NCBI GenBank assembly: GCA_007693505.1
Contig: REDL01000045.1
Span: 1 to 64,000, forward strand
DNA: 64,000 nt
Direction: 5' to 3'
From: Desulfovibrionales bacterium
GTDB lineage: Bacteria; Desulfobacterota; Desulfovibrionia; Desulfovibrionales; Desulfonatronaceae
This document shows, in pieces, positions 31,411 through 52,201 of this stretch. Each line of letters opens with the position of its first letter. The first letter of the stretch is position 1. The position numbers and the translations under genes were made by a program. The notes under the pieces were generated by a model. The model searched no databases. It was not told the DNA's origin and saw only the letters and a program-made list of their open reading frames with translations.

Positions 31411-31416
31411 GGCGAC

Positions 31417-34715: not shown

Positions 34716-35074
34716 AAACCACGATACCCTTCATTTTGATGATTTCCACGAATTCCGGAGCAATCTTTTCGATGTCCAGCAAATCCAAAGGAAAATTCGT
34801 CATCCGCTCCGCATCGCCGAACATGCGAAAAAATCGTTCCGGTTCCCGCACGCCCTCCACGGCCAAATCGATATCCGAGTACTCCCGAAACAACTCCGGA
34901 CGCAATACGGAACCCCATTGATATATACGAATGGGATTGTAGCGCTGGATGATCATGCGCACAATGGCGGAAGCGTCGGCCACGGCCTTTGGCATGGAGC
35001 AGGCTCAATTTTTCCTGATGGGCCTGTTTCTCGCGCTTGAGGAAGGATCGCGCCGTGTCAATGGAAACGGTCAT
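34684..35074 (-). pseudogene. MntA-like nucleotidyltransferase antitoxin, split by a frameshift
   Basis: The natural start is the ATG at 35074, which overlaps the upstream stop (ATGA). That frame gives MTVSIDTARSFLKREKQAHQ and then leaves the family. The other frame, from the ATG at 34995, gives AVADASAIVRMIIQRYNP and the nucleotidyltransferase motif QWGSVLRPELFREYSDIDLA. Loss of one G in the AAAGGCC run near 34986-34992 would restore LLHAKAVADAS. MNT antitoxins modify and silence their HEPN partner. A shorter protein of 103 aa could still be made from 34995. The 3' end overlaps the HEPN gene by 32 bp. Confidence 0.7.
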
Positions 35075-35565
35075 ATTTGATCCCGGGGGGGGGAAACCGG
35101 GTCTTGGAAAAGGGCGATCTTCGAAGTCGCCTCCGCCACGATATTTTCCGACAGTGCTTGCTCAATGTAGGCTTGCTTCTTCTCTTTGGATTGGTTCCAT
35201 CGAAAATGCCTGGCATAGGCCTGCTCAACCCCGGCATCGCCACTGAGTGAAAAGCGCAGGATGCGTTTCCTGCCGTATTGCCTGTAGGTATGCTGGCTGG
35301 GAACCATGTTCAGGTCGTGGACGTGAAAACGCAGAATCCGCAGATACCGGTTGGCTTTGGAAAGATTCCCCTGGAAGACACGCTCAAGACACGGCACCTG
35401 ACCACGACGCCAGGCCTCGTAGTCCTTGGAGGATAGATTGCCGGTTCGCATGAATACGGCGACCGGAGATATCTCGTCCAAGTCCCGCAACAAGGAAGCA
35501 ACAGCCCACACCACCCTTGGGTACAGCTTGTCTTTTCGATATGTGCCGACTGTGACGTTCTTCAT
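35071..35565 (-). CDS. Hypothetical protein in the MNT/HEPN unit
   Basis: 164 aa. A basic soluble protein without a recognised domain (YPRVVWAVASLLRDLDEISP; YEAWRRGQVPCLERVFQGN). Its stop overlaps the start of the MNT gene (ATGA), so it is the first gene of a three-gene unit with it. The repeated pattern of a structured N-terminal half and a charged helical end could suit nucleic-acid binding, but no motif proves that. Composition is more AT-rich than the T6SS genes on either side, in line with later arrival. Confidence 0.6.
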   Translation of the reverse strand: MKNVTVGTYRKDKLYPRVVWAVASLLRDLDEISPVAVFMRTGNLSSKDYEAWRRGQVPCLERVFQGNLSKANRYLRILRFHVHDLNMVPSQHTYRQYGRKRILRFSLSGDAGVEQAYARHFRWNQSKEKKQAYIEQALSENIVAEATSKIALFQDPVSPPRDQI

Positions 35566-35673
35566 CAATTATATCCCATTGATGGACTTTTGGGGTGTGA
35601 TCCTATAGGGCGGACCAGGATCTCAAGCCTCAAGCGAGATGGTCGCATCTGCTTCCAGAGAAAGGGACAACGG

Positions 35674-35913: not shown

Positions 35914-36318
35914 TCACCCCAGCGTCAGCACGGTCACCTGACTGGGCGTGGTGCAGATTCCGGCTGTGTTGGGGAGCATGCCCATGGCGTTTTGGCCGGT
36001 GATTGAGGTCAGACGCTGCATGGGCAAGCCGTCGGCGAAGATGGTGATACAGCCCAGTTCATAGTCAGTCTGACCGGCCTCGATGTGCGAAACAACCCCC
36101 AGCAGAACTCCGGGCTGGTCGCCCACGCTGACCAGCCCCATGGAAAGCTGATTGATGGTCGGCGTGCAGCTGGTCAGCACGTTGTAGGCCGCTGGAGCCG
36201 TGGCTGCGGAAAAGGACATATTTGGATAGGGCACGGGAACCGGGCCTGCCGGAGTCGGGGTCTGACAGACGTCCGGGAAACCCATATTCATGCCGGGACC
36301 CATGGAAAGCGCGAACAT
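35914..36318 (-). CDS. DUF4150 PAAR-like protein, module B
   Basis: 134 aa. The start DVCQTPTPAGPVPVPYPN matches the module A protein (DVCNVPTPAGNVPTPFPN), and the end PSQVTVLTLG matches PSQVKVMILS. These Pro-rich starts and small beta-repeats define the PAAR-like DUF4150 group, predicted to sharpen the VgrG tip. AGGAG lies seven bases before the ATG. It is separated from DUF3540 upstream by 194 bp, the widest gap inside any module, and is followed directly by the winged-helix fragment. Confidence 0.83.
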   Translation of the reverse strand: MFALSMGPGMNMGFPDVCQTPTPAGPVPVPYPNMSFSAATAPAAYNVLTSCTPTINQLSMGLVSVGDQPGVLLGVVSHIEAGQTDYELGCITIFADGLPMQRLTSITGQNAMGMLPNTAGICTTPSQVTVLTLG

Positions 36319-36512: not shown

Positions 36513-37133
36513 CTACCCCAATTGCACGGTTTCGCCGTCCACTTTGACCTGCTCCTGGGCCTGAATAAAGGTTTCCCGGCTTTGCAGAACCGCTGTTTCC
36601 TCCACCACCAGACGCAGATTGCCGCATTGGCATTCCTCGTCTTCCTGAACAAAGCGTTGGGATCTGGTCAGGCGTTGAACCAAATCGCCGATGGTGCTGT
36701 CCATTTGACGAACCGTGGTGGCGATGCGCCCGGCCTGGATACGCAGAAAGCGGGTGGTCAGCTCGACCAGACCGATGTTGGCTTCGGCCTCGGCGGCATG
36801 GACGCCAACCTTGGCCGTGACGCAGTTCAGCTCCTGTTCCGGAGCCAGGGTCAGTCGGCCTTGGCTGTGCAGTACTGAATCACGGGGCAGGTTGAAATGG
36901 GCTGGAGCTTCGGGGGCCGTGCGCTCCAACACCGCCAGAATGTGATGGCAGCCGGCATCAGCAACGCTGAGCAGCACCAGGTCGCCGCTTTCCGGAGACA
37001 AAAGGCAGGACACTGCTTGGCGGGCTACCAGCGAGCGCCCGCCGACGCCGACTTCCCAGGCGTCATCCAGACGATGCCGGACCGTGGCATGGTGCAGGCC
37101 CAGCACATACGAGCGTGAGGGATTGTAGGTCAT
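36513..37133 (-). CDS. DUF3540 T6SS-associated protein, module B
   Basis: 206 aa, the shortest of the three DUF3540 proteins. GDLVLLSVADAGCHHILAVL aligns with GDLVLLMRHPGGIHYVLQIL of module C and GDMVLVYDGPGKVVYILSVL of module A. A helical stretch (VELTTRFLRIQAGRIATTVR) and a closing VDGETVQLG follow. The end resembles the last residues of VgrG extensions (VTSTGMISLG, DADGFIKLG), suggesting a similar beta-structure. It starts 10 bp after the pentapeptide gene stop. Confidence 0.75.
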   Translation of the reverse strand: MTYNPSRSYVLGLHHATVRHRLDDAWEVGVGGRSLVARQAVSCLLSPESGDLVLLSVADAGCHHILAVLERTAPEAPAHFNLPRDSVLHSQGRLTLAPEQELNCVTAKVGVHAAEAEANIGLVELTTRFLRIQAGRIATTVRQMDSTIGDLVQRLTRSQRFVQEDEECQCGNLRLVVEETAVLQSRETFIQAQEQVKVDGETVQLG

Positions 37134-37143
37134 GTCAAGCTCC

Positions 37144-38211
37144 TTATAATATCGACGGTACCGTCCAGTCTTCGGCCTGGGCCAATTCCTCGTCCGTTCC
37201 CCGCAGTAGCACGGTCACCGCGTCGTCGAACCGGGAACCGTCGGTATTGGCCTTGTGCATCCGGCCCATGTACAGGGTTGCCTTGCTGAAGTCGCAGTCC
37301 CGCAACTCGGCGTGGGAAAAATTGCCGTGGTGCAGCTTGGCGGAGGTGAAGCGCGTGGCCAAGCACCTGGCCCGCTCGAACTGGCCGTTGACCAGATTGG
37401 CCTCGGACAGGTCGGCCCCCTCCAGGGTCGCTTCGTTGAAAATTGCCTGGGGCAGGTTGGCGTTGACGAACCGCGTGCCCGGACACTTCGCGCCAAGAAA
37501 CATCACGTACTGCCCTTGGCAGCGTTCAAAGTTCGCCTCATCCAGGTCGGCCCCGGAAAAATTGCTCATGTTCAGGTTGGCTTGGCGAAAGTCCGCCTTG
37601 CGCAGGTCGCAGCCGTCGAACTGGACCTGATTCAGGGCCATCCCGGCAAAGGAAAACCCCGTCAGGACGCAGCCCCGGAGCATGACCTTTTCCAGGGCCG
37701 TTGCTTCCAGACGCAGGCCGTCCAGCACGGCCTCCAGGAAGACCACCCGGTCCAGCACGGCCCGACCGAGGTTTGCGCCGGAAAAGACCGCGCGGGAAAA
37801 GACCATCTTTTCCAGGCGGGCGCCGCTCAGGTCCGCGCCGCTGAAGACGGTCTCCTGGCCCATGGACCAGCCGATCCGTGCCCCGGCGCAGTCGGCCCCG
37901 GCCAGCCGGGCCTTCTGCATCATGCACATGTGGATGGTCGCGCCGCGTAGCGATGCGCCTTCCATGTTCAGACCCTGGATGTTCATCCTGATCCACTGGG
38001 TGTCCGAGAGATCGGCCCCGCGCAGATCGCAGTCTTGGAATCCGGTCCGGGAGATGTCCGCCCGGGACAGCTTGGCGCCGCGCAGGTCCGTGCCGAAAAA
38101 GCGCGCGCCCCGCAGGTCCGCGCCGGACAGGTCGATTCCGGAAAGGTCCATGTCCAGGGTGCGGTTCTCGGCCACGGCCTGAAGCACCTGTTCCCGGGTC
38201 AGGACGCTCAT
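37144..38211 (-). CDS. Pentapeptide-repeat protein, module B
   Basis: 355 aa. After a helical start (MSVLTREQVLQAVAENRTLD), pentapeptides run nearly to the end (DLSGIDLSGADLRGARFFG and on), predicting a beta-helix of roughly 16-17 coils. The ATG at 38211 overlaps the TGA of the DUF2169 gene (ATGA), as in module C. A longer in-frame extension to 38790 runs antiphase through that gene and is not real. The C-terminal cap GTDEELAQAEDWTVPS is shared with modules A and C. Confidence 0.9.
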   Translation of the reverse strand: MSVLTREQVLQAVAENRTLDMDLSGIDLSGADLRGARFFGTDLRGAKLSRADISRTGFQDCDLRGADLSDTQWIRMNIQGLNMEGASLRGATIHMCMMQKARLAGADCAGARIGWSMGQETVFSGADLSGARLEKMVFSRAVFSGANLGRAVLDRVVFLEAVLDGLRLEATALEKVMLRGCVLTGFSFAGMALNQVQFDGCDLRKADFRQANLNMSNFSGADLDEANFERCQGQYVMFLGAKCPGTRFVNANLPQAIFNEATLEGADLSEANLVNGQFERARCLATRFTSAKLHHGNFSHAELRDCDFSKATLYMGRMHKANTDGSRFDDAVTVLLRGTDEELAQAEDWTVPSIL

Positions 38212-41200
38212 GTGAAATACTCCTCGCGGCCCTTCTCCAGCAGGGAGCGTTTCAGCAGCGCCCCGTCCAGCCGCGTCTCGCCCAGGACCGCCTTGTAAAA
38301 GTCCACGCCGAAAAGGTTGGCCAGGGTCAGATCGGCCTGGACCAGACGGGTGCGCTTCAGGGAGCCGGACATCAGGTTCGCGCCGCGCAGGTCGGCCAGC
38401 TCCAGGTTGGAACGCGGGAAACGGACCTTGCGGGCCGTGACCCCCTTCAGTCCGGCCTTGGTCAGGCGACAGTTCTCCACAATGGCCTCGTCCAGGTTCG
38501 CGCCCGTGAAAGAGGCTCCGGCGAAATCCGTATCCCGCAGCGAGGCCTGGCGCAGGGTGGCCCCGGTCAGGTCCGCGCCGGAAAAGTCGGTCTCCTTGGC
38601 CGTGCGCAGATGGTCCAGGTTCGCGCCGGCGAAAACGACCTTTTCCCCGCGGCAGGCCTGGAACATGGTCCGGTTCAGCGTTGCCTCGTGAAATGCGGCT
38701 CCGTCCAGCACGCAGCGGTTGATCAGGCAGCGCGTGGCCGAGATTTTGCGCAGACTCGCTCCGGTCAGATCCGTATCCGCCAGAACGCACATGCGCAGAT
38801 TGGCCTCGTCCAGGCGGGCGTCCGTCAGCCTGGTTTTCTCGATCACGGCCATTTCGGCGTCCATGCCGATCAGGTTGGCTTTGCTCAGGTCCGCTTCCCG
38901 GAACACGGCCTGCTGGATCCGGGCTCCCTGAAGATCAGCCTTGGTAAAGGAGGCCTTGCGCAGCACGGCCCGGCTCAGATCGGCCCCGCGCAGCGAGGCT
39001 CCGGAAAAGTCCGTTTCCCCGGCCATGCATTGGGCCAGCACGGCCTTGTCCAGGATGGTTTTCGTGAATTTTGTCTTGGTCAGCTGGGTCTTGGTCAAAT
39101 CCGCGCCGCTCAGGTCCAGGTTCGACAGATCCACCCCCGAAAGGACGGCCCCGGAAAGACTTTCGCCCCGGGCGTGCCGGTCGATGACTTCTTCCCGGGT
39201 CAGGGGACGGATCGTGTCCGGGCCCAATCCATGGGCAGCCAACCTAGCCTTGGCCTCTTCCGGCGGCTCCATGGCCTTGAGCCTGACCAGGCCCTGCTCC
39301 AATTCCTGTTTTTTGGCGGCCATTTCCTGCCTTGCCGCGGCGAATTTGGCATCCGCCTCCCTGGTGCGGCTGGTGATCTCCGCGATGGCCTTGTCGAACT
39401 CGGAAGCCCGTTCCGGAGTCAATTGCCCGGCCTGGCGCAAGGACTCCTTCTGGCCCTTGAGAGCGCTGGCGAACTGCTCCCCGGATCCCTGGAACGATCT
39501 GCCCGGCTTGGCGGACATGGCCTTGTCCACCACGGACGGGTCCTGGCCGGCCCGGCGTAGCATGTCCTTGGCCTGCTGCATCATCTCGGCCTGGCGGGCT
39601 TCCATCTCGGACTTGATCGGCTGCATTCGGGCTTCCATGGCCTGACGGACCTCCAGGATGACTCCCGGAATGATCGTCTTCAGATCCGGCATGGCCAGCG
39701 AGCCTTGCAGTGGCGGGCCGGAAGGCGGCTTGCCCGGTTCGGGCAGGACGATCTCCCGGCGGTGGGCCTCGGCCAGGGCCGGGGGCAGCAGGCCCAGCAG
39801 AAAGCCCCGCACGTCCTGCTGGCGGCGATGGGCCTCGAACACGGTGCTCCCCTTGGGCAGCACCGCCGGGATGATCCGGGGCAGCACGGCCTTCCAGGCG
39901 GTGATCAGCCTGGCATCCGGGCGCGTCGTCTCAGGCAGGACGACCAGCACCGTCTCGGCGTTTTGCAGGGCCTCGGCGGATTGCGGTCCCGGCTTTTCGT
40001 CAGGGGAGGACAGTGCCAGAATGGAGCAGCAATCCCCAATCTCCTGTTCCAGGAAGATCGCGGCAAAGGGGTCCGGAGCCACGATCACGGGGGCGGAGGG
40101 GGCCGCGGGCAGACCGGGCAGGTCGATCAGGGTGGCTGCGGGCAGAAAGAGCGGCTCCGGGTCGGAGCCGGAAACGACAATATCCCGTGTTGGATTTTCG
40201 GGCAGGATGTCGTCGGAGCCAAAAGGCCGGATATGCAGGCTGATCAGTTTTTTCCCGTCAAACCTGGGCAGCCAGAGGCCGGGGGGCAGAGACAGGGAGG
40301 CTTCCTGATCGACTCCCCAATCCTGGGGGTGAAAGGCAACCTGATCCCGAGTCGTTCCGAACCAGTGTCGCTTCCAGGTCCGGCTTTCAAGGCCAAGTCT
40401 TTTCAGTACGGCCCGGGCCTGGTCGTCCAGGTCCAAATTACGGCGAGCCTCCACCAGGAGCGGAAAACCGGCATCATGCCACGGGCCCAGGGATTTTGGC
40501 TTCAGAGGATCGTCCAAGGCTTGCGTGGCTTCGGTGAGTTCATCGGAGCCGAATTGCTTCGGCATGTTCGCCCGTAATTGGGACACTGCGTCTTTTTGGA
40601 CCTGGTCCAGCTTTGCCCTGGTCTGGTCGGCCTTGGCCAAGGACGCCTTGACCTTCTCGTCCATGGCGCCCAGCTTGGCCCGGCAGCGGTCAAAAATCGT
40701 CAGGTCAACTACCGTGGCGTGGCCGAAACGGGCTTGCAGCTTGCGGGCCGTGGCTTCCAGACCGTTGAGCGTGGCATGTCCGTCGGCCAGCCGTTTCGCG
40801 GATAGGTCGGCAAATTGAGCCGTGGAGGGCAGGGGCATGGACGGGCGGTTGCCCAAAGCCTTTTGCCGCGCGTCGTCGATCTCCTTGGGAATGGAGCCCA
40901 GACGGCGCAGCAGGGGGGTCAGCTTTTCCTTGGCCTGTTCAAACGGGGCCATGTCGATATCCGCGCCGCGATGCAGGCGGCGGGTCAGCTCGTCCCGGTA
41001 GTACTCGATGCTTTTTGGCGCGTCGCCCTGGTCGGCCTGACTGCCCATATCCTCCAGGGCCAGCAGCAGACGTGTAGCGTCTCCCAGGTTTTCGTCCCTG
41101 ATCCTGGTCATGCCCCGGAAGATGAGTAGGCCGCGCAGCAGGGAGGGAAACAGCCAGACCGTGTCCAGGTGGGTGGAGATTTCGCGAAATTCGTCCGTAT

Positions 41201-42059
41201 CCCGGAGCGGCTCCGAAGGCAGGGGGCCGGGCGGCCACTGGTGCGGCTTCCAGGTTGTGTCCAAGGTCACGAAGGCGCGTAACCGCAATTGAGGCAGGTG
41301 TGTGGTTATCAGTTGGTGTTCGGGATGCATCCCCGTGATTTCCACCTGCTCTCCGCCCTGGAAAAAGCCCTCGGCCAGGAACTGATCTTCCTGGGCCTGG
41401 TTGAAGTACTCGTAATTCATGTCGTCGGGGAACCAGGGCCAGCGGCTCTTCAACCAGGTGTCGTCATAGGTTCCGGCCTTGACCTTGCGCTGGGGCCAGG
41501 TCTGGTCCATGGGGCCGAGACAGGCCGGTTCGGGCCGATCCGTGGCCGCGCCAATCAAGCGGGCCGGATGTTCGATGTTCGGCAACGGTCGCCGGGCCAG
41601 GCCGTCCGGACCAAGGACCTCCACAGCCCCTTTGCCCAAAGGGTTGCGTTCAAAACCATCGCCGCCGTAAGCGGAATCCCAGGACAAGGGCAGGGAAACA
41701 AATGGCTTGGCCTGGGAGATGCCCCCCTGGGTCCAGAAACGATCCCCGAAAACGAACAATTCCTTGCGCACCCCGCCAACACGAAACCCGGCCTTGTGCG
41801 CCGCACGGGCCGCTCCGTCAGGCTGGAAGCAGGCTCCGGAGACCAGTGCCTCGCCGCGGGGCTTGGGCACGCCCTGGTCGATGATCATCGGCTGCCCCAA
41901 CTGACCGGGCAGAGCGCCCCACATGTTCTGCTCCGTGTCCAAGGCGTCCGGATCAAGCAGGTTGAAAAAGACCAGCCCGGCCACGCACAGCCAGGTTTCA
42001 CCGTGAATACCGATGGGCCGGAAAAGCGGAGAGACGGTTTTGTCTTTGAAGACCTTCAT
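38208..42059 (-). CDS. Very large DUF2169 protein with pentapeptide repeats, module B
   Basis: 1283 aa, about 400 longer than the module A and C versions. DUF2169 is at about 1-330 (LPLSWDSAYGGDGFERNPLG). A coiled-coil section (about 400-530; VKASLAKADQTRAKLDQVQK) and a second alpha/beta section (about 560-800; EIGDCCSILALSSPDEKPG, then DARLITAWKAVLPRIIPAV) are absent from the other two. A further helical stretch (about 820-950) leads into pentapeptide repeats (about 960-1275). There is no signal peptide. The extra section could be a cargo or enzyme-like domain; no known motif is recognised. It lies 17 bp after vgrG. Confidence 0.87.
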   Translation of the reverse strand: MKVFKDKTVSPLFRPIGIHGETWLCVAGLVFFNLLDPDALDTEQNMWGALPGQLGQPMIIDQGVPKPRGEALVSGACFQPDGAARAAHKAGFRVGGVRKELFVFGDRFWTQGGISQAKPFVSLPLSWDSAYGGDGFERNPLGKGAVEVLGPDGLARRPLPNIEHPARLIGAATDRPEPACLGPMDQTWPQRKVKAGTYDDTWLKSRWPWFPDDMNYEYFNQAQEDQFLAEGFFQGGEQVEITGMHPEHQLITTHLPQLRLRAFVTLDTTWKPHQWPPGPLPSEPLRDTDEFREISTHLDTVWLFPSLLRGLLIFRGMTRIRDENLGDATRLLLALEDMGSQADQGDAPKSIEYYRDELTRRLHRGADIDMAPFEQAKEKLTPLLRRLGSIPKEIDDARQKALGNRPSMPLPSTAQFADLSAKRLADGHATLNGLEATARKLQARFGHATVVDLTIFDRCRAKLGAMDEKVKASLAKADQTRAKLDQVQKDAVSQLRANMPKQFGSDELTEATQALDDPLKPKSLGPWHDAGFPLLVEARRNLDLDDQARAVLKRLGLESRTWKRHWFGTTRDQVAFHPQDWGVDQEASLSLPPGLWLPRFDGKKLISLHIRPFGSDDILPENPTRDIVVSGSDPEPLFLPAATLIDLPGLPAAPSAPVIVAPDPFAAIFLEQEIGDCCSILALSSPDEKPGPQSAEALQNAETVLVVLPETTRPDARLITAWKAVLPRIIPAVLPKGSTVFEAHRRQQDVRGFLLGLLPPALAEAHRREIVLPEPGKPPSGPPLQGSLAMPDLKTIIPGVILEVRQAMEARMQPIKSEMEARQAEMMQQAKDMLRRAGQDPSVVDKAMSAKPGRSFQGSGEQFASALKGQKESLRQAGQLTPERASEFDKAIAEITSRTREADAKFAAARQEMAAKKQELEQGLVRLKAMEPPEEAKARLAAHGLGPDTIRPLTREEVIDRHARGESLSGAVLSGVDLSNLDLSGADLTKTQLTKTKFTKTILDKAVLAQCMAGETDFSGASLRGADLSRAVLRKASFTKADLQGARIQQAVFREADLSKANLIGMDAEMAVIEKTRLTDARLDEANLRMCVLADTDLTGASLRKISATRCLINRCVLDGAAFHEATLNRTMFQACRGEKVVFAGANLDHLRTAKETDFSGADLTGATLRQASLRDTDFAGASFTGANLDEAIVENCRLTKAGLKGVTARKVRFPRSNLELADLRGANLMSGSLKRTRLVQADLTLANLFGVDFYKAVLGETRLDGALLKRSLLEKGREEYFT

Positions 42060-42076: not shown

Positions 42077-44389
42077 CTAGAGGTTGTTAATCAACCCGGC
42101 AATGTTGTTCATCTCTGCGGCGATGGTATCGCTTTGCCCGGCCACTGTGGATTTCTTGGCCAACAGCCGGGTGTAACTTCCGATAATATCTGATCGAACA
42201 CTCATCAGTTCAGTCTTTTCTCCGCCAAGCTTGGTCACTTCTCCTGCCAGTTCCTGAACCGTACCTGCAAGATGAGATTGCAAACCGGCCAAGCGCATTG
42301 TCTCTCCAGCCAAACTGTTGACCTGTCCGGCCAGTTTCGCGGATTCGCCGGTCAGCTGAGAGGTCTGCCCCGCCAGCTTGCAATGTTCCCCAAAAACATT
42401 GGTCACGTCCCCGGCGACGTCAGTCACTTGGCCCTCCAGTTTGGTGCAGCTGCCGCGCAAGACCTCTACCTGTCCTTCAAGTTCTTTCACTTCCCCAGCA
42501 AGTTTATCTTTGTTCAGATGAACATTGATTTTGTGCGGTGCCAACTCTCCATGCACTGCTGCCGCGAAACCGAACTTCGAAATCAGGTGGGCATCCGCGC
42601 TGACGCCGGCCACAATCTTTTCCTCCCCCCCGCCGATAAATTTGAAGTCGTTGCCGAGGATGACCTGGTTGGAGGTCTCGGCCTCCACCTTGAACCATTT
42701 ATTCGTGCTGATGGCCACGCCCCATGGCTTGCCCGCTTCACCTTCCTTTTTCATATCCTCGATTTCTTTTTCCAGCTTTTCAATTTTCTCGCTGTCCTCG
42801 TTGGCCTCGCCGTGGGACCCTGTACCCGGGTCATTGGGCGCGCCGATGCGGATGAAGGTGTTGGCGGAAGGGGTGTGCATCACCACCCGCTGCTTGCCCT
42901 CCTCGTCCTCCATGTGCATCACGTTGCCGCCGCCGGAGAGCAGACGGACCTGGGTCTGGTTCGCGTCGGTGACCGGGCTGGGCGTCTCGGGGTTGGGCAC
43001 GGCTCCGGCGATCACCGGGCGATCCGGATCGGCCTCGATGAAGGACAGCAAAACCTCGGTGCCCTTGTGCAACGGCGCATGAAAACCCATGCCCTCCCCG
43101 GCATAGGGCTGCATCATCCGCAGATAGGCCGAAGCCTTGCCTTCCTTGCGTCCGGACAGGTCAAAGGGCAGGATCACCTTGTATCGTCCGTGCTTGTCCA
43201 GTTCCGCGTATTTGCCCCTGCCCGCTGCATCGACCTTGGCGGACAGGGTTCCGGCCAGGCGTGGCCTGGGCGTGATTCGCGCCGGGCGGAACTGGGTGGA
43301 GGCGGGAATGCACGTGAAGGTATTGCGGTAAAACAGCCCATCGATGTTCTCCAGGTCCCGGATACCCAGCCCGCTGAGCAGATAGCGCTCCTGACTACCC
43401 TCATGACGCACCGTGGTGGTCAGGTACTGCTGATTGAACTCATCCCGGAAATGGCGCTGCATCTGAAAGACATATCCTGGACGCAAAGCCGGGATGGAGG
43501 AAAGACCATGAAAAATCTTCTCCCGGCAACGATACTCCTCGGCCCGGATTTTGGCCAAGTGGTCACCTTCGCTCTTGTCCCGAAAGTTTTCCCCGTAAAG
43601 ATAGATCTCACCTCGCCCGCCGTCCTGAACAGAGGCCTTGCCATCCAGGTCCAGGCTGGGTTTCAGGTAGTCGTAATCCTTGAGCAGGACATTTTTGGGC
43701 AGGGGGCTCTGCTTGAGTGTGAAGCGCTTGACCACGTGATCCGCTTCCCCGGCGTCCAGCCCGGAAGGCGGGGAATACGTCATGGTTTCATGGCCGGAAA
43801 GCGGAGCATGGGCGATCAAGGTGTCCGAGGCGATCAGTTTTTCACCCTGCTCCTCCTGGGCAAACCAGAAATAGATACCGTCCCACTCCATCCACCGCGA
43901 AACAAAAGCGAAATGGGACTCATCATACTGGCAAACGTACTCCCTTGCGGCTTCTTTCTCCTGAAGATGAAACTCGAAATCCAGTCCATGGAGCAGTCCG
44001 CCGTCCTCCAGCACGTCAGCCAAATATTCATGCAGCTTCTTGTTCAGAAAAATCTGGTTGTGATGCGTCAGGGTCAGCCACCAGGCCTTGGGACGCAACA
44101 CGGCCCGGTAAAAGAAATAGTTTCCAGCCTGATGCATCTGCTCGAAAGAGCAGAGAATGCCGTGATACGGCAGATCCTCGCCTCCGGAAAAGCGCCCCTT
44201 GATGGTCAATGTGGCCGGATTCTGGAGAACCGCGGTTATGTCCACGTCCTCCCGATCCGAGACCAGCAGAATATCAAAAGAATACAAAGTTGAAAGTCCC
44301 TCGTCACCGGAAAACGTAACCACGGTGAACGTCTCCGCGGGCAGGGTCTGACTGACAAACGTGAAGGCATTTTCATTCAGGGTCGGCAT
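42077..44389 (-). CDS. vgrG: VgrG spike protein, module B, with a 7-residue-repeat tail
   Basis: 770 aa. The gp27-like part (ENAFTFVSQTLPAETFTVVT onward) and the OB domain (KGTEVLLSFIEADPDRPVI near residue 446) are close to the module A VgrG. After ~600 the sequence turns into about 20 consecutive seven-residue units of the form L-x-G-x-x-x-x, running to the last residue. It lacks the hydrophobic pair present in modules A and C. As the tip of the secretion tube, such a tail could form a long three-stranded stalk or a docking surface for adaptors. Confidence 0.94.
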   Translation of the reverse strand: MPTLNENAFTFVSQTLPAETFTVVTFSGDEGLSTLYSFDILLVSDREDVDITAVLQNPATLTIKGRFSGGEDLPYHGILCSFEQMHQAGNYFFYRAVLRPKAWWLTLTHHNQIFLNKKLHEYLADVLEDGGLLHGLDFEFHLQEKEAAREYVCQYDESHFAFVSRWMEWDGIYFWFAQEEQGEKLIASDTLIAHAPLSGHETMTYSPPSGLDAGEADHVVKRFTLKQSPLPKNVLLKDYDYLKPSLDLDGKASVQDGGRGEIYLYGENFRDKSEGDHLAKIRAEEYRCREKIFHGLSSIPALRPGYVFQMQRHFRDEFNQQYLTTTVRHEGSQERYLLSGLGIRDLENIDGLFYRNTFTCIPASTQFRPARITPRPRLAGTLSAKVDAAGRGKYAELDKHGRYKVILPFDLSGRKEGKASAYLRMMQPYAGEGMGFHAPLHKGTEVLLSFIEADPDRPVIAGAVPNPETPSPVTDANQTQVRLLSGGGNVMHMEDEEGKQRVVMHTPSANTFIRIGAPNDPGTGSHGEANEDSEKIEKLEKEIEDMKKEGEAGKPWGVAISTNKWFKVEAETSNQVILGNDFKFIGGGEEKIVAGVSADAHLISKFGFAAAVHGELAPHKINVHLNKDKLAGEVKELEGQVEVLRGSCTKLEGQVTDVAGDVTNVFGEHCKLAGQTSQLTGESAKLAGQVNSLAGETMRLAGLQSHLAGTVQELAGEVTKLGGEKTELMSVRSDIIGSYTRLLAKKSTVAGQSDTIAAEMNNIAGLINNL
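42080..42502 (-). repeat. Coding repeat: about 20 heptads (LxGxxxx) at the VgrG C-terminus
   Basis: Residues 630-769 split into exact sevens, e.g. LAGEVKE, LEGQVEV, LEGQVTD, LAGQTSQ, LAGQVNS, LAGETMR, LAGEVTK, VAGQSDT. Leu/Ile/Val stands at position 1 in every unit and Gly at position 3 in most. The phase never slips over 140 residues. Confidence 0.9.
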
Positions 44390-44549: not shown

Positions 44550-44948
44550 TCAGGACAGAATCATCACCTTGACCTGGCTGGGTGGAGCGATGACGGCCCC
44601 GACCATGGCGTTGTCCTTGTTCTGCGTGGTGGGATCGCCCATTCTCTGGGCCTGACTCCCCTCAATGCGCACCTTCATGCTGCCCATGAGGAACTTCACC
44701 GGCCCCTTGATGGTGCCGGAACTGACCCCCATGGCCACTCCAGGTTCGTCGCCGCTGGTCACGGGGATTGTGCATCGCTTGGTTACCGCCGGAGTGCCGC
44801 CGATCAACACATTTGTTGCTCCGGGTAGCGCCATGGACATTTGCCCGAGATTGGGAAATGGCGTGGGAACGTTGCCGGCTGGCGTGGGAACATTGCAGAC
44901 GTCTGGAAACGCGGACGTCATTCCGCCAAGTTTGCAGCATGCATGCAT
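44550..44948 (-). CDS. DUF4150 PAAR-like protein, module A
   Basis: 132 aa. It begins MHACCKLGGMTSAFPDVCNV and ends PSQVKVMILS, like its relatives in modules B and C. The middle shows the repeated short beta-turn pattern (GGTPAVTKRCTIPVTSGDEP, KVRIEGSQAQRMGDPTTQNK), which also resembles the module C protein (KVMVEGSPAVRLNDGTTQNG). Predicted to cap the VgrG trimer. AGGAG lies eight bases upstream. The next gene, vgrG of module B, starts 160 bp further on, room for a separate promoter. Confidence 0.84.
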   Translation of the reverse strand: MHACCKLGGMTSAFPDVCNVPTPAGNVPTPFPNLGQMSMALPGATNVLIGGTPAVTKRCTIPVTSGDEPGVAMGVSSGTIKGPVKFLMGSMKVRIEGSQAQRMGDPTTQNKDNAMVGAVIAPPSQVKVMILS

Positions 44949-45022
44949 AGGGCACTCTCCTGAAAAACGTGTTCAAAACCTCCCCCGGTCAGCCGAGACG
45001 GGAAAGGCAATCTGCTTGATAC

Positions 45023-45706
45023 TCAACCGATATTGACCCGCTTTCCGTCCACGGCCATGGTCCCTTTGGCCCGCAGGTCCGCCGAACCAGCCTTGAGTTT
45101 GCAGGACTTTTCAACCTGAATACGCAGATGCCCGGCATGATTGGTTTCCACGCCTTCCACGCGGCGCAGGCAATGTCCCAGGGTCTGCACCATGGAACGG
45201 GCCGTCACTCGGACTGCGTCCACGATTGAACCAAATCGGCCGATGCGGGCTTCCAGGCTGGCCGCCAGCACCCCCAGACGCAAAAAATCCAAACGCCCGC
45301 TGCCGCCGTTAATCGTTACTTCCGGTGCCGAAACCTTCAGCGACTCTCCGCCTTCAAACCGGACCTTCGGAGCGCGGACAAACAGATTCGCCTTGGTTTC
45401 AAGCCTGATTTCCTCGCGCCCGGATTCCAACACGCTGAGTATGTAGACGACCTTCCCCGGTCCGTCGTAAACCAGCACCATATCCCCCAAACCCGGAGCA
45501 GCCAGGCACCCTGTCGCCACACCGGATTCCAGCACCCGGCCGCTCTCCAGGCGGATGATAAAGCGCCCGCGTTCACCGCTCACAACGCGGCCATGGACGA
45601 TCTGTCCCTGTTCCGGATTCGGTATGCTGTCGGCGCAGTGGGCCGGTCCGGGGAGAGGAAAGGCAATAATCGCACGTTGTGCGCCGTTCGGCCTGGTTGC
45701 GTTCAT
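45023..45706 (-). CDS. DUF3540 T6SS-associated protein, module A
   Basis: 227 aa. GDMVLVYDGPGKVVYILSVL, the helical segment LGVLAASLEARIGRFGSIVD and the end AVDGKRVNIG match the other two DUF3540 proteins. I chose the ATG at 45706 because the distance from it to the conserved G-x-V-V-S strand equals that in module C. A GTG at 45754 overlapping the upstream stop (GTGA) is an alternative that would add a Cys-rich N-terminus. It lies 44 bp after the pentapeptide gene. Confidence 0.74.
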   Translation of the reverse strand: MNATRPNGAQRAIIAFPLPGPAHCADSIPNPEQGQIVHGRVVSGERGRFIIRLESGRVLESGVATGCLAAPGLGDMVLVYDGPGKVVYILSVLESGREEIRLETKANLFVRAPKVRFEGGESLKVSAPEVTINGGSGRLDFLRLGVLAASLEARIGRFGSIVDAVRVTARSMVQTLGHCLRRVEGVETNHAGHLRIQVEKSCKLKAGSADLRAKGTMAVDGKRVNIG

Positions 45707-45750
45707 GCAGTCACCATCCTGGATGCAAGGGCACGAATCGGCCCCGCAAG

Positions 45751-46746
45751 TCACTTATTTGCCACCCATAATTCCGCATCAGCCAAATCCCTATCCGTGG
45801 CCCGGACTCGGGAGACATCACCACCTCCCTGAGCAACCTGCGCCATGTCCACCCGGTGCAGGTTGGCCATGTACAGACGTGCCTCCAGAAAGCGACTTCC
45901 TGAAAGAACTGACCGCGAAAGGTCGGCGTAGCGAAGATCAGCCCGCGAAAAGTCGCCCCCGATACAGTCACAGTCGGTTAACAGGGCACCCTGGAGATTG
46001 GCGGCCTGAAAATCAGTCCGTCGCAATGTACTTTGGGAAAACACGGCCCCTTCCAAAAAGGCCCTGGTGAACCGGGCCGCATCGGCTCGAGCCTCGGGAA
46101 ACTGGGCATACTGCCCGTGGACCTCGAGGCAGACCGCCTCGGTTAAATCTGCCTGGGCGAAACTGGCCCGGGAAATATCCAGCCCGGAAATGTCTATCCC
46201 GCGCAGCTCAGCCTGGTCGAACATGGCCAGGATCAAACAGCAGCCAGTGAGACGCTGTCCTGTCAATTTGGCCTGCCGCAAAAACGCTCTTTCCAAATTC
46301 GTATTCCTGAACACTGCCCTGGTCAAATCCGCGGCAGGCAGCAAAATCCGGGACAGATTCGACTCGCTGAAATCGGTTCCTTCCAGGGAACACTGAGCGA
46401 TCTCCGTCCGGCTCAAGTCGGCGTCTTGAAATCGAACCCGATTCAAATCGCTGTCATGAAACTGGACCAACGTGATCATGGATTGGCCTAAATCCGCATC
46501 GGTCAACGTGCACTCGGCGAACACGGCCTCATTGAGATCCGCACCGGTGAACACGGCCCCCCGCAGGGAACACCTCACAAACTGGCACTCGGAAAGTCGC
46601 GCCCCGGAAAAATTACTTCCATCCAGGATCACATTTTCCAGAACCAGCCCCATCAGATCGCTTTCCGCCAGGTTGAAGCCGGTCAGGTCCACATCCGCCA
46701 GCCTTCCGGTTTCTCGGGCCTGATCAACGTAGTCAGAAAACGTCAC
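45751..46746 (-). CDS. Pentapeptide-repeat protein, module A
   Basis: 331 aa, the same length as in module C. A helical start (MTFSDYVDQARETGRLADVD) leads into tandem pentapeptides (FTGADLNEAVFAECTLTDAD) and the shared cap RATDRDLADAELWVANK. The gene overlaps the end of the DUF2169 gene by 14 bp. Known soluble pentapeptide proteins such as MfpA and Qnr mimic DNA and bind gyrase; whether these do is untested, as the surface charge cannot be judged from repeats alone. Confidence 0.88.
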   Translation of the reverse strand: MTFSDYVDQARETGRLADVDLTGFNLAESDLMGLVLENVILDGSNFSGARLSECQFVRCSLRGAVFTGADLNEAVFAECTLTDADLGQSMITLVQFHDSDLNRVRFQDADLSRTEIAQCSLEGTDFSESNLSRILLPAADLTRAVFRNTNLERAFLRQAKLTGQRLTGCCLILAMFDQAELRGIDISGLDISRASFAQADLTEAVCLEVHGQYAQFPEARADAARFTRAFLEGAVFSQSTLRRTDFQAANLQGALLTDCDCIGGDFSRADLRYADLSRSVLSGSRFLEARLYMANLHRVDMAQVAQGGGDVSRVRATDRDLADAELWVANK

Positions 46747-49447
46747 GAAATCGCTCCGGATCCAGCAAGGTGCGTTTCAGATTGCTCCGCTCCAGGCTGG
46801 TTCCACCCAGCATAGCCTTGAACAAATCCGCACCGAAACAGTTGGCGCCGTCAAGCCGGGCACCTCGCAAATCGGCATGCCGCAGCAGGGCATTCATCAG
46901 ATTCATCTGCCGCAGATCGGCCCCTTCCAGCAGGGCCTGGCCCAGATCCACCTCCCGAGCCAGAGCATACCTGAGAAGGGCCTTGCGCAAGTTGCAGCGA
47001 GCCAACCCGGCCTTGTCCAGATTGGCTTCAGTCAAATCCGCTCGTGACAGATTCGCTCCGGACCATTGGGCCCCTTCGGCCCGAACCTGACGCAGAGAGG
47101 CTTTCTCCATGGACGTGGCCGCATCGGCACGGGACAGACGCAAATCCGCCCGCTTCAGCTCGGCGTCCTGAAGCAGGGTCCCGTCCAGGCGGGCATTCAC
47201 CGCTATGGCGGCGATCATGGTGGCTGAAAAGAGTTGAGTTTCATCCAGAATGGCCTCCGTCAGGTCGGCAGCGTCCAGATCGGCTCCAGCAAGGTCGGCC
47301 CGAGAGAAGTCGCCTTTGGTGGCAATCAGCCCGGAGGCCCGCGCACCGGTCATCCGGGCGGCCTCGAACACCGCACGAATACACGTGGCCTGGGTCAAAA
47401 TCGCCTGGTGAAAATCAGCCCCTGTAAAGTCCCCTGCCGTGAGGTCCGCACCAGTCAAATCCGCACCTTGAAAATCGCTGTATGCGGCCACCACATGGCG
47501 CAGTACGGCATGCGTGCATGATGCCTCCCTGAAACTGGCCTGGTGCAGCACGGCTCCAGTGAACACGGCGCCGCTCAGGTCCGCGTGGTCGAAAACGGCC
47601 CGTTCCAGCATGGCGCCGGAAAAATCTCTTCCCGTCAAATTCTGGCCGGAAAAATCTACGCCGGTGAGGTCGTGCTCACGCGCCCAGTGATCCATCCCGG
47701 TGTGAGCCGGAGGCGGTTCGGATTGCCCTGCCGTCCGTGTCGGCTGTTCCAGGATCCCGGGTGTTTCGGAGCTCCCGTCAGACTTGAGCGTCATATTCCG
47801 CAGTGCGGCCAGGGCCGTTATCGCCTCCCGGATTGAAGCGGCGAGTTCCGCGGGAATGCGGGTATCAGACGCCAGGGCCTCCAATTCACTCACGCTTGGA
47901 GGTGAAGCCAGTTTGTTGAGCGCATCGAGATACTGCTCCGGCGTCAAGCCATGTCTGGCCAGAAAATCCTCGGCTCGGACTTCGGCCTCTGCCAGCAGTT
48001 GATCCACGCTCTTTTCCGGTACGGAGGCAGCTGCGGCCCGCTCCTGGCTTTCATACTCCTGAAGCAGCTGGTGCGCCTGCTCCTGGGAGCAGCCCAAATT
48101 TTCCAGTATCTCTTGACACCGGGCCTGGGCATCAGCCACCTGGCCCTCCAGCTCGGCCTGGGCTTGGGCCCCGCCCAGCGCCTCGGGCCCATCTGAAACG
48201 GTTGCCCCGTCAGCAGACAAACTGCCCCAGTCCCCCTGTACGTCAACCGAAGTCGGTTCTGGTCGGGCATCTTCGAGCGACGCACCGGGCGACTCCACTG
48301 TGTCATCTTGGCCTCCTGCCCCGGACAGCTCCGGTGAAACCGGAGGCGACAACGAGCTTCCACCTTTTTCCGGAACCTCCATCGTGGATTCGCCCCCTTC
48401 TTCCGGCAAGAACAGCTCCAGGCGCAGCTGTTCCAGATAGACGGCCACGGGCAGGGCCGGGATTTCTTGTCTCTCAATACCGAGAACCACGTTGGAAATG
48501 TCCTCGGCCTGTTCCTTCTGAATTGGAATCTGGGCCCGAAAGCACAGCACACCCAGCTCCAGGCCGGGGAAAAACCAGACCGTGTCCGCAACGGTCCGGA
48601 CCTCCCGAAATGTCTCCAGGCTCTCCCCGGGACCGGTGACGAAAATTCTGGGCCGCAATAAGGGCAATTTCCCGGTCATTCGTGGCCGCGAGAGATGCAT
48701 GTTGGTCAACTCGTAGTCCTCGCCGCCTGAAAGGTAGCCTTCCAGCCATTGGTCAGGCTGGGCGCTCATGTGCAGCAACGGATTGGTGGACGCTGGAAGC
48801 TCCGGAAAATCGTCCAACATCCAGTTCCGGTCCAGCGGTCCAAGATACTGGGTTCGGGGGGACCACCACTGTGGCACAGCACGCAGACAAGCCGGCCTGG
48901 GTCGTCGACCCGGTGCCAAAGGATGCTCCGCTTCCAAAATCACATTGGGCACGGCAATGGCTCCGGAAGCTCTGCCACCAGACTGCACATCCAGCCCTTT
49001 CCCCTGGGGGTTGCCTGGAAAACCCCGGCCGCCGAAGGTATTTTCCCAGGTCAGCGGAAGACGGGAAAAGGGCTGCGGGGCGTCAGGGCCGGTCATCCCG
49101 TAACCCCGATTGCCGAAGACCATCAATCGCTTGGCCACGTTCCCCACGCGGGCCATAACCGGACACCCCTCCACGGCCTGGGGTGGAACACAGTCTCCGT
49201 AGACAAGAAATTCAGCCCGAGGTTTCAAGCGGCCGGAATCAAAAAGTTCCCCCTCCCCAAGAACCTGGGGCACTGCCGACCACAGCTCCGCCTCCGACAG
49301 CAGCGTCAAGTCCTCCTGAGAATCAAGGGCCTGATGGGAGCTTGCCAGGGAAAAGCAGGCGAACAGAGACAGGACCAGATTAAGCTCCCCGGCATGAGCG
49401 AACACCGAGGGAAAAAACGCGAGATTTTCCGGCTTGAGGACTTTCAT
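46733..49447 (-). CDS. DUF2169 protein with pentapeptide repeats, module A
   Basis: 904 aa. DUF2169 is at about 1-330 (MKVLKPENLAFFPS; SRLPLTWENTFGGRGFPGNP). The central ~250 residues are Ser/Pro-rich, then helical with paired short helices (QEILENLGCSQEQAHQLLQE; DFLARHGLTPEQYLDALNKL). Pentapeptide repeats run from about 592 to 900 (DLTGVDFSGQNLTGRDFSGA). The paired helices recur in module C (YLDAIGVSPAQAEDILVKAA), so the central region is related there. The gene starts 23 bp after vgrG. Confidence 0.87.
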   Translation of the reverse strand: MKVLKPENLAFFPSVFAHAGELNLVLSLFACFSLASSHQALDSQEDLTLLSEAELWSAVPQVLGEGELFDSGRLKPRAEFLVYGDCVPPQAVEGCPVMARVGNVAKRLMVFGNRGYGMTGPDAPQPFSRLPLTWENTFGGRGFPGNPQGKGLDVQSGGRASGAIAVPNVILEAEHPLAPGRRPRPACLRAVPQWWSPRTQYLGPLDRNWMLDDFPELPASTNPLLHMSAQPDQWLEGYLSGGEDYELTNMHLSRPRMTGKLPLLRPRIFVTGPGESLETFREVRTVADTVWFFPGLELGVLCFRAQIPIQKEQAEDISNVVLGIERQEIPALPVAVYLEQLRLELFLPEEGGESTMEVPEKGGSSLSPPVSPELSGAGGQDDTVESPGASLEDARPEPTSVDVQGDWGSLSADGATVSDGPEALGGAQAQAELEGQVADAQARCQEILENLGCSQEQAHQLLQEYESQERAAAASVPEKSVDQLLAEAEVRAEDFLARHGLTPEQYLDALNKLASPPSVSELEALASDTRIPAELAASIREAITALAALRNMTLKSDGSSETPGILEQPTRTAGQSEPPPAHTGMDHWAREHDLTGVDFSGQNLTGRDFSGAMLERAVFDHADLSGAVFTGAVLHQASFREASCTHAVLRHVVAAYSDFQGADLTGADLTAGDFTGADFHQAILTQATCIRAVFEAARMTGARASGLIATKGDFSRADLAGADLDAADLTEAILDETQLFSATMIAAIAVNARLDGTLLQDAELKRADLRLSRADAATSMEKASLRQVRAEGAQWSGANLSRADLTEANLDKAGLARCNLRKALLRYALAREVDLGQALLEGADLRQMNLMNALLRHADLRGARLDGANCFGADLFKAMLGGTSLERSNLKRTLLDPERFRDVF

Positions 49448-49470
49448 GAATTCTGGCGCGCTCCGGCATC

Positions 49471-52098
49471 CTACCCGAGACTGATCATCCCGGTGCTGGT
49501 CACTTTCAGCGCACCAGCGTTGAGCAGGGGAAACTTGAGTTTAATGCCGCCGGGGTTCACAAGGATGGAGGAACTGCCCCCAGGAGCGGAAAGCAGCGCC
49601 TTGCTGGGGTCCAGACGAAGCTTTGCCGTGCCGCCCACGACATCAGTTCCATCAGCGGCGGCCCGTATGCTGTTTTGAGCATACTGCACCGTGGCCTTGG
49701 CGGGACTCAGCGTCAATCGCCCCCCTGGGGTCGTCGCGGAAACTGTCTGACCGTTGTTCAGGCTGAGCGAAGCCGTAGACTTGTTGTTCAGCCGCACGCT
49801 ATTTCCGCCGCTGGAGATGGCTATCGACGATTGCTGTGGTGGAACAAGTCCGACCTTGGCTTCAAAGCCGGCTCCAGGGTTTACCCCGTTTTTCACGTCG
49901 ATATTCACACCTGCGTCCCCGAGCTTGATGTTCGCGGCATAGCCGGTCAGATCAGAAGCCTTGAGCGCCGCGATGGCGCTGCGCGTCAAGGCGGTGATGC
50001 CGGCCCAGACAGCGGCAAACCCGATACCCGTGCCCGCCAGGCCCCATTTCTGGCCTTTCGTCAGCCCTGAAAATTGGTCATTCTCCTTGATACTGGCGGA
50101 TGCCGCCACGGCACCACCCACGGAAGCGGCACAGGTCAGGCCGAAAGCGGTCTTCAGCTTGCGCAGCGCCCCCCGTGTTGCAAAGTTGGCCCCTCCCCGG
50201 AGAGTTACCTGATCCGTCCCCACCAGGGACTTTTTGTCGTCCAGGGAGTACCCGTCCGTTCCAAAAGCTACCCGTTCACCTCGGTCATAATCGAACTTTG
50301 TCGTCAAGGAGGCCCCCCATGCCAACGAGGCATCCACACTGCCCTTCGCTCCGACCGAAACATCATTTTTGATCCCGCCAAAAAATGAAAAAGCCTGGCC
50401 GATTGTGTTCTCGACCTTGTTTTCCAGCGCGACGTTGCGGATGTTGTCCCCCCAAATTTCCACGGTACTTTTTTTCCTGGATTGTTCCCCGGCTTCCTCT
50501 TCCTCGCCTCCATCGCCGGCTGTCTGACTTGCATCCTCGTCATCAGCGTTGGTCATGACCAGCCGGGCCGCGCCTGCCGGCAAAGCCATGCCGATGGCCT
50601 GGGAACCGCGGATATCGGAAAAGACCATCTCACTGCCCCCGGCCGTGCGCAACGCATTATGCGGCGCATTGCCCTCCGTAACCACATTCGGGGTTTCCTG
50701 GTTGGGCACCGCGGCCTGAATGATCGGGCGATCGGGGTCGCCGTCAATAAATCCAATCAGCACTTCCGTCCCCTTGAGCAAGGGAAAATGCATACCGTGA
50801 TCTGCTCCGGCATACGGCGTGGCCATCCGTAGCCAGGCAGAAGCCTTGCCGTCACGGCGGCCGGAAAGGTCAAACGGCAGAATCACCTTGTATCGGCCGT
50901 ATTTGTCCAGTTCGGCGTATTTTCCACTGCCGGCCGCATCTATCTTTGCCGAAAGCGATCCAGCCATTCGCGGCTTGGTCGTGATCCGCGGCGGACGATA
51001 CTGAACATTCCCGGGGATGCATTTAAACGTGTTGCGGTAGAACAGCTCATCTTTTACCCCTTGCTCCCCGCCGCCGAACCCTCCGAGTAGATATCGCTCC
51101 TGACTGCCCTCATGGTGCACCATGGTAGTCAAGTACTCGGTGTTAAAGGCTTCATGAAAGTGACGTTCCAGCTCGAAGGTGTAACCAGGGCGTACTGCCG
51201 GGATGGAGGACAGACCATGAAACACCTTCTCCCGACAATGGTATTCATCGGCTCGAATACCGGCCAAACGATCACCCTCGGCATTATCCAAAAAATGCTC
51301 ACCATATAAATAGATATCCCCCCGTCCCCCATCCTGAACGCGAGCCTTGCCTTCCAGAGGCAGGCTTGGTTTCATGTAGTTGTAATCCCGCACAAGAATG
51401 CTTTTCGGCATGGGGCTCTGCTTCAAGGTAAATCGCTTGACGACCCTGCCGGCTTCATCCGCATCCAGGCCGGAGGGCGGGGAATAGCGGAAGGTTTCAT
51501 GCCCGGGAAGCGAGGTGTGGGCAATCAATGTGTCCGATGCAATCATCTTTTCCGAGAAGCCCCCTTGATCGAACCAGTAGTACACGCCGTTGCGTTCCAG
51601 CCACCGGGACAGAAACTGGTAGTGCGACTCCCCATACTGACAGACGAACTCCCAGGGAGGGTACTTGCGCTTGTAGCGGAACTCGAAATCCAGACCCGAA
51701 GTCAAGCCGCCGTCCTCCAGCACTGCGGTGAGAAATTCCTCATTGGTCTTGCCCAAAAAAACCTGGTTGTGGTGTGTCAGGGTCAGCCACCACAACTTTG
51801 GCCTGAGCTCGGCACGATAGAAAACGCTGTCGCCTACCTGGTGCATCATCTCGAACGCGGACAAAATCCCATGGAACGGCAGATCCGCGCTTCCGGAAAT
51901 CACCCCCTTGATGGTAAACGTGGCTGGATTTTGGAGAACGGCGGTCAGGTCGACATTTCGCCGTTGGGAAACCAGCAGGATGTCAAAGCGATAGAGGGTG
52001 GACAGTCCCTCGTCCCCGTTGAACCGAGCTACTGTAAACGTATCCTCGGGTAGGGCTTTGCTGATGAAGGTGAACGCATTTTCTCGGGGTTGGGGCAT
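49471..52098 (-). CDS. vgrG: VgrG spike protein, module A, with hydrophobic pair and beta-rich tail
   Basis: 875 aa from the ATG at 52098, which has AGAGGAG upstream; a frame to 52137 adds 13 residues. The gp27-like part and OB domain (KGTEVLIGFIDGDPDRPII near residue 439) are close to module B. The extension contains hydrophobic stretches at about 646-670 (LTCAASVGGAVAASASI) and 680-700 (GLAGTGIGFAAVWAGITAL), then beta-strands ending VTSTGMISLG. A hydrophobic pair in the same place occurs in module C. It is the first module after the core genes and so probably the primary spike. Confidence 0.94.
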   Translation of the reverse strand: MPQPRENAFTFISKALPEDTFTVARFNGDEGLSTLYRFDILLVSQRRNVDLTAVLQNPATFTIKGVISGSADLPFHGILSAFEMMHQVGDSVFYRAELRPKLWWLTLTHHNQVFLGKTNEEFLTAVLEDGGLTSGLDFEFRYKRKYPPWEFVCQYGESHYQFLSRWLERNGVYYWFDQGGFSEKMIASDTLIAHTSLPGHETFRYSPPSGLDADEAGRVVKRFTLKQSPMPKSILVRDYNYMKPSLPLEGKARVQDGGRGDIYLYGEHFLDNAEGDRLAGIRADEYHCREKVFHGLSSIPAVRPGYTFELERHFHEAFNTEYLTTMVHHEGSQERYLLGGFGGGEQGVKDELFYRNTFKCIPGNVQYRPPRITTKPRMAGSLSAKIDAAGSGKYAELDKYGRYKVILPFDLSGRRDGKASAWLRMATPYAGADHGMHFPLLKGTEVLIGFIDGDPDRPIIQAAVPNQETPNVVTEGNAPHNALRTAGGSEMVFSDIRGSQAIGMALPAGAARLVMTNADDEDASQTAGDGGEEEEAGEQSRKKSTVEIWGDNIRNVALENKVENTIGQAFSFFGGIKNDVSVGAKGSVDASLAWGASLTTKFDYDRGERVAFGTDGYSLDDKKSLVGTDQVTLRGGANFATRGALRKLKTAFGLTCAASVGGAVAASASIKENDQFSGLTKGQKWGLAGTGIGFAAVWAGITALTRSAIAALKASDLTGYAANIKLGDAGVNIDVKNGVNPGAGFEAKVGLVPPQQSSIAISSGGNSVRLNNKSTASLSLNNGQTVSATTPGGRLTLSPAKATVQYAQNSIRAAADGTDVVGGTAKLRLDPSKALLSAPGGSSSILVNPGGIKLKFPLLNAGALKVTSTGMISLG

Positions 52099-52201
52099 AC
52101 TGAAGCTCCTCTGAAAGCGATTTCCTGGTTTGCTCACCGGACGCAGGCAATCCCTCCACCAGCTCCCTGCAGATGGGCGGACAATTCTACGGTCCGCATG
52201 C

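Follow-up and report, generated by a model that had tools for sequence, protein, structure and literature searches.

A predicted helical heptad tail on a VgrG of a Desulfovibrionales Tvp Class III locus co-occurs with a long TvpAB adaptor that carries a degenerate primase-like domain

We analysed a 64,000-nucleotide stretch from a Desulfovibrionales bacterium (assembly GCA_007693505.1, contig REDL01000045.1, positions 1 to 64,000; hereafter the window), which encodes three VgrG spike proteins, referred to as VgrG A, B and C. VgrG B opens a complete Tvp Class III module, a type defined in Serratia marcescens as VgrG/TvpAB/TvpB/TvpC/Paar1 (Monlezun et al. 2026, PMC13373197), and its C-terminal tail consists of unbroken seven-residue repeats. 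Tails of this kind, or separately encoded tips, are found almost without exception beside a long form of the adaptor TvpAB. The explanation that we consider quite likely is a detachable coiled-coil module at the distal end of the spike, together with a matching enlarged loading adaptor. The parts of VgrG B are as follows.

42077-44389, minus strand: VgrG B, 770 residues (Pfam PF05954 7e-75, PF04717 7e-8, TIGR03361 1e-107), with the gp27/GPD domain at residues 30-333, the OB domain at residues 416-463 and a first beta-prism at about residues 470-520
42725-42829, minus strand: charged low-complexity linker with a short helix, residues 521-555, which is the gene split point in relatives
42521-42724, minus strand: distal beta segment, residues 556-623, modelled with low confidence
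42080-42502, minus strand: heptad tail LxGx(V)xx, 20 heptads and a Leu, residues 630-770

The presence of both the gp27-like (GPD) and the OB domain identifies the protein as a VgrG (TssI). According to the translation, the residues from 630 (nucleotide 42502) to the stop form exactly 20 heptads followed by Leu770. Position 1 is Leu, Ile or Val in all 21 cases (15 Leu, 3 Val and 3 Ile), and position 3 is Gly in 17 of 20 (with Ala twice and Ser once). Shuffling these residues 20,000 times gave at most 14 for the hydrophobic column and 9 for the Gly column. The hydrophobic seven-residue spacing also extends about two heptads upstream of residue 630 (a run of 23). Position 5 is hydrophobic in about half of the heptads (Val in seven, plus Ile, Met, Tyr and Cys); positions 1 and 5 together give the 4-3 spacing of coiled coils, with position 1 as d, position 5 as a and position 3 as f. 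No DNA tandem repeat was found beneath the tail, which rules out such a repeat as the origin of the heptads; the periodicity is therefore one of the protein. No significant heptad run is present in VgrG A (p 0.10) or in VgrG C (p 0.28). The first-pass annotation of the window had described about 20 unbroken sevens with Leu, Ile or Val at position 1 and Gly mostly at position 3, in VgrG B and not in the other two VgrGs; both statements are borne out, and the coordinates were right.

The tail is conserved in relatives. It is present in two genomes of the same genus and, beyond the genus, in other families of the order, and a scan of 84,980 species, made with one pattern only, found it almost exclusively in Desulfobacterota-type genomes; no relative was found in viral contigs. 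Across 43 distinct VgrGs with the same tail, position 1 is Leu, Ile, Val, Met or Phe in about 91%, and at position 3 the commonest residues are Gly (45%) and Ala (19%), followed by Thr, Glu, Gln and Asn. Pro makes up 0.15% of the residues in these tails vs 2.25% in other VgrG tails. Between the tails, 29 of 75 gaps measure 7 or 14 residues and none measures 6 or 8-13, the pairs compared not being independent of each other. One VgrG of genome G004 (locus L010, also L077) has a tail of near-perfect 14-residue units (LRADHNTLDGTVNQ), a pattern that suggests a recent duplication of heptad pairs.

Concerning the fold, an AlphaFold2 model of residues 475-770, based on a 15-sequence alignment, contains one uninterrupted helix from residue 624 to residue 769. 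The block means of the predicted local distance difference test (pLDDT) are 82-92 from the second turn onward and 77 in the last block. The model is of a single chain; since VgrG is a trimer, the tail would be trimeric too. Two traits of a trimeric coiled coil are found, the heptad hydrophobic repeat in the sequence and the helix by prediction; a third, three parallel chains, would follow from the stoichiometry of VgrG. A profile search of the PDB with the tail returned mostly coiled coils, including cavin (4qkv) and the tail needle gp26 (4lin). We therefore favour, on the model, an alpha-helical segment that forms a trimeric coiled-coil stalk. A straight rod of this length would measure about 215 Å, calculated at 1.5 Å per residue, so that a lengthened spike, as proposed earlier, would fit the data. 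The first-pass annotation had left the choice between a trimeric beta-structure and a helical stalk. The stalk is favoured by the predicted helix, the replaceable Gly, the near absence of Pro and the coiled-coil matches in the PDB, and the beta-structure is disfavoured. The tail is neither predicted to be unstructured nor missing from close relatives, the two outcomes that were to count against the earlier proposal.

The second line of evidence is the association of the tail with TvpAB. Genomes were sampled for DUF2169, and 80 regions were extracted and annotated together with the loci found earlier. VgrGs with the heptad tail adjoin long TvpAB proteins of about 1240-1330 residues, whereas other VgrGs adjoin short ones of about 740-1100 residues. 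Among the scorable modules, a coil tail or a separate tip is present in 47 of the 48 with a TvpAB of at least 1180 residues and in none of the 29 with a shorter one (Fisher 2e-20). The sole exception, L058, has a tail that is coil-like by eye and lies below the heptad threshold. The two types share one genome both in the window (VgrG B vs VgrGs A and C) and in genomes G002, G004, G137, G201 and G230. In the DUF2169 tree, tail type and TvpAB length each change 4-5 times, and none of the contrasts runs in the opposite direction. The earlier suggestion that the tail is a dock for the pentapeptide adaptors gains indirect support from this co-occurrence with a long DUF2169-pentapeptide protein, and a physical contact between tail and TvpAB may be supposed.

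The additional length of TvpAB lies in an insert between the DUF2169 domain and the pentapeptide repeats.

38208-42059, minus strand: TvpAB, long form, 1283 residues, with DUF2169 at residues 19-315, an insert of about 700 residues and pentapeptide repeats at about residues 1014-1283
39780-40493, minus strand: degenerate TOPRIM-primase-like domain in the insert, about residues 523-760

The AlphaFold2 model of a 685-residue insert of a long TvpAB consists of helical bundles around an alpha/beta domain, with a mean pLDDT of 75. The link to primases was made first by structural comparison and then with prophage-type primases. In the structural comparison (VIA) the top matches of the predicted fold are 21 primase-core chains (DnaG, T7 and Twinkle; Z from 14.7, for DnaG, to 9.1), and the TOPRIM domains of topoisomerases rank below them (Z about 8). 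In a database of 30 sequences, a profile of 53 inserts matches two stand-alone prophage-type primases, that of a relative with 7.8e-47 and a second one with 7e-26. The insert thus combines a predicted primase-core fold with sequence homology to TOPRIM primases, but the catalytic Glu and DxD are missing: the Glu is found in 2 of the 53 inserts, the first Asp in none and the second Asp in 4. Given this homology and the lost catalytic residues, the long TvpAB has captured a primase core and its active site is gone. No primase was recognised when the insert was scanned against Pfam, the hhalign comparison with chromosomal DnaG was not significant (0.6%), and a single-sequence tblastn against plasmids and phages gave no match to the insert.

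In some relatives the distal part of the spike is a gene of its own. Such split loci (L098, L101, L105, L109-L115, L117, L118 and L142) are found in Desulfovibrionales genomes and in a single genome from a different family of the phylum. Their VgrG, about 530-625 residues where complete, stops just after the first prism; a separate tip gene of about 200-360 residues, comprising the beta segment and the heptad coil, normally follows directly downstream, and then a long TvpAB. Split and fused tips are homologous (hmmsearch values down to 4e-23; hhalign 98.8%). The beta part alone also matches the split tips in a profile search (best 3e-11), and the distal beta segment of VgrG B is the start of the distal module that it has in common with the separate tip proteins. 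A locus has one, two or three of these tip genes, and the copies are only 19-36% identical. In L098, L112, L113 and L117 three diverged tip genes stand in a row between the shortened vgrG and the long tvpAB, apparently in one operon. In L055, L086, L087 and L088 two to four coil-tailed vgrGs stand in tandem, their distal parts about 20-35% identical. In L118 the tip gene (6804-7412, minus strand) lies between vgrG and tvpAB on the strand opposite to both; an invertible cassette was considered and rejected, as no convincing inverted repeats flank it.

Three diverged tip chains encoded side by side suggest a heterotrimer. This can be extended, tentatively, to a split spear: VgrG would provide no more than the base, and a coiled-coil trimer encoded apart from it would form the distal tip. 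At loci with three neighbouring diverged tip genes, or with a tandem of three coil-tailed vgrGs, the trimer would be an obligate heterotrimer, asymmetric for a single PIPY protein and assembled by the adaptor with its domesticated dead primase. We consider this extended form doubtful.

Several results weigh against the coiled-coil stalk and its matching adaptor. The canonical COILS-type score is only moderate, with 1.57 where the tail begins and 1.1-1.2 along most of it, and Gly together with Thr, Asn or Ser recurs in every heptad, which is unusual in a helix. There is a similarity, too, between the tail and the ice-binding beta-roll 3ULT (profile E 9.5e-5), which has a 7+7 period and the same VxG spacing, and the tail has a match of 2e-4, below the cut-off, to the Pfam family LbR_Ice_bind. 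The independent contrasts in the DUF2169 tree are few, two or three on well-supported branches and 4-5 on all branches; the link between tail and TvpAB is therefore consistent but not many times statistically independent. Also, the (L/I/M)G ending that characterises TvpC is absent from coil tails (1/43 vs 64/72). Because the last residue of coil VgrGs is a bare hydrophobic one instead, the PIPY protein is probably seated on them differently from the TvpC pre-complex.

The alternative that survives best is a helical tail that does not extend the spike, being folded back along the prism or serving only as a docking handle on TvpAB or TvpB. The strong co-occurrence with long TvpAB would be expected of a handle, and the small residues Ala and Gly at e and f suit tight packing against a partner. 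On the other side, the predicted helix is a continuous rod, in a model of the VgrG chain alone, and the heptads run on with neither Pro nor break. We regard this arrangement as possible, and clearly less so than the extended stalk.

A slightly lower chance is given to the view that TvpAB length and tail type are co-inherited by common descent only, with no functional link. The small number of changes on the TvpAB tree is what this view would lead one to expect; however, the association persists through repeated switches, through fission of the tip gene and between modules of one genome.

That the heptads form a beta structure appears unlikely. It could be a left-handed beta-roll, each turn made of two heptads as in the ice-binding protein, or a form of the gp5/VgrG triple beta-helix with seven residues per repeat in place of the usual octad. 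The hydrophobic-x-Gly spacing suits both, position 6 is Thr, Asn or Ser in 56%, like the inward Asn ladder of a beta-roll, and the matches to 3ULT and LbR_Ice_bind point the same way; long beta-prisms are also reported for Class III VgrGs elsewhere, in the available text of PMC13373197. However, AlphaFold2 gives an unbroken helix of high confidence, and 3ULT is a single match amid dozens of coiled coils. Gly is dispensable, since the Gly-poor tails of L087 and L096 retain the heptad with helix-type residues, and Ala at position 2, Glu or Gln at 4, the often hydrophobic position 5 and Lys or Glu at 7 suit a coil.

That the tail and the separate tip proteins are cargo or effector parts is very improbable: C-terminal extensions of VgrGs are frequently effectors and the split copies are diverged, but VgrG B has no match to a toxin family, the sequence is repetitive and of low complexity, the association with loading adaptors is constant and no dedicated immunity gene was recognised.

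For the coiled-coil distal module with its enlarged adaptor, the following mechanism can be proposed. The tails of a VgrG trimer would form a parallel three-stranded stalk beyond the first beta-prism, with Leu, Ile or Val at d and Val or Thr at a in the core, and Gly or Ala on the outer f face. The beta segment and the coil would make up a distal spike module, fused to VgrG here or supplied as separate small proteins, that replaces the ordinary beta-prism tip. The Tvp Class III loading complex would be adapted to this module through the enlarged TvpAB, a loading chaperone in which the captured primase-type TOPRIM domain, its catalytic residues gone, may serve as a scaffold. Before firing, the complex would come off, having loaded and protected the module and seated the PIPY tip.

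The remaining genes of module B and the comparison modules of the window are listed below.

37144-38217, minus strand: TvpB, a stand-alone pentapeptide-repeat protein
36513-37133, minus strand: TvpC, DUF3540 (7.5e-40)
35914-36318, minus strand: DUF4150/PIPY PAAR-like spike tip protein (PF13665, 6.4e-31)
44550-52137, minus strand: comparison module with no heptads, comprising VgrG C (49471-52137), a short TvpAB of 904 residues (46733-49447), TvpB, TvpC and DUF4150
28813-34110, minus strand: comparison pair with no heptads, comprising VgrG A (31417-34110) and a short TvpAB of 865 residues (28813-31410)

Module B thus contains the DUF2169-pentapeptide TvpAB, the separate pentapeptide TvpB, the DUF3540 TvpC and the DUF4150 tip protein of Class III. 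A second full module starts with VgrG C, and VgrG A, too, has a DUF2169-pentapeptide protein of its own after it. A long beta-prism up to the VgrG C-terminus is described in the available text of PMC13373197 as a statistical tendency of Class III and not a strict criterion; in VgrG B the predicted helix stands in its place, and the locus is therefore filed as a Tvp Class III variant. Small unassigned open reading frames separate vgrG A from the DUF4150 gene of module B (34712-35568, minus strand) and are possible effector or immunity genes. The long C-terminal regions of VgrG A and VgrG C (31417-34110 and 49471-52137, minus strand) contain hydrophobic, Ala/Gly-rich membrane-like stretches (e.g. 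AVWAGITALTRSAIAAL).

The usual picture of VgrG is that of a single continuous protein whose beta-prism end carries the PAAR tip. A distal module that is helical, swappable and sometimes separately encoded would make tip and base exchangeable independently, and it would call for an explanation of how a coil can seat the tip protein. An adaptor with a captured dead primase domain would, if true, be another enzyme fold turned into a loading factor of the type VI secretion system. The spike of T4 gp5 and the VgrG beta-helix is trimeric and also has a periodic hydrophobic-x-Gly pattern, in VxGxxxxx octads. It differs from VgrG B in its period of 8, its obligatory Gly and its strands: the tail has a period of 7, its Gly is replaceable (45% in relatives) and a helix is predicted. 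The P22 tail needle gp26 is a trimeric coiled-coil rod at the injection tip; its profile match to the tail (4lin, 0.004) is what any coiled coil gives, it is not a VgrG, and there is no evidence of common descent. The insert of the long TvpAB is homologous to the prophage-type TOPRIM primases (L170 and L169) and shares its predicted fold with DnaG, but it is catalytically degenerate and fused between DUF2169 and the pentapeptide repeats.

VgrGi of Acinetobacter baumannii (PMC6960284) also has a predicted coiled coil after the prism; its coil, however, is a linker of about 20 residues to DUF2345 and transthyretin-like domains, whereas that of VgrG B is a terminal stalk of 20 heptads. DUF2169 synteny type C (Sachar et al. 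2025, PMC11883445) has the same DUF2169 protein with a C-terminal pentapeptide domain, VgrG, DUF4150 (PIPY) and DUF3540, but coil tails, split tips and a long TvpAB insert are not described in the available text of that paper. Searches of the open-licence PMC literature yielded no account of a VgrG tail with 20 heptads, of a VgrG tip that is split off or of a TvpAB domain resembling a primase. The co-occurrence of a predicted coil stalk and a dead-primase adaptor suggests a version of the type VI weapon tip that has not been described before. The nearest system is the Class III of Serratia, with which the locus shares a VgrG with a long C-terminus, a DUF2169 and pentapeptide TvpAB, a pentapeptide TvpB, a DUF3540 TvpC and a DUF4150 tip protein. 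As far as the available text of PMC13373197 goes, neither a primase-derived TvpAB domain nor a separate distal gene is described there, and the extra length of the Serratia VgrG is predicted to be a beta-prism of 186 Å, in contrast to the predicted helix of VgrG B.
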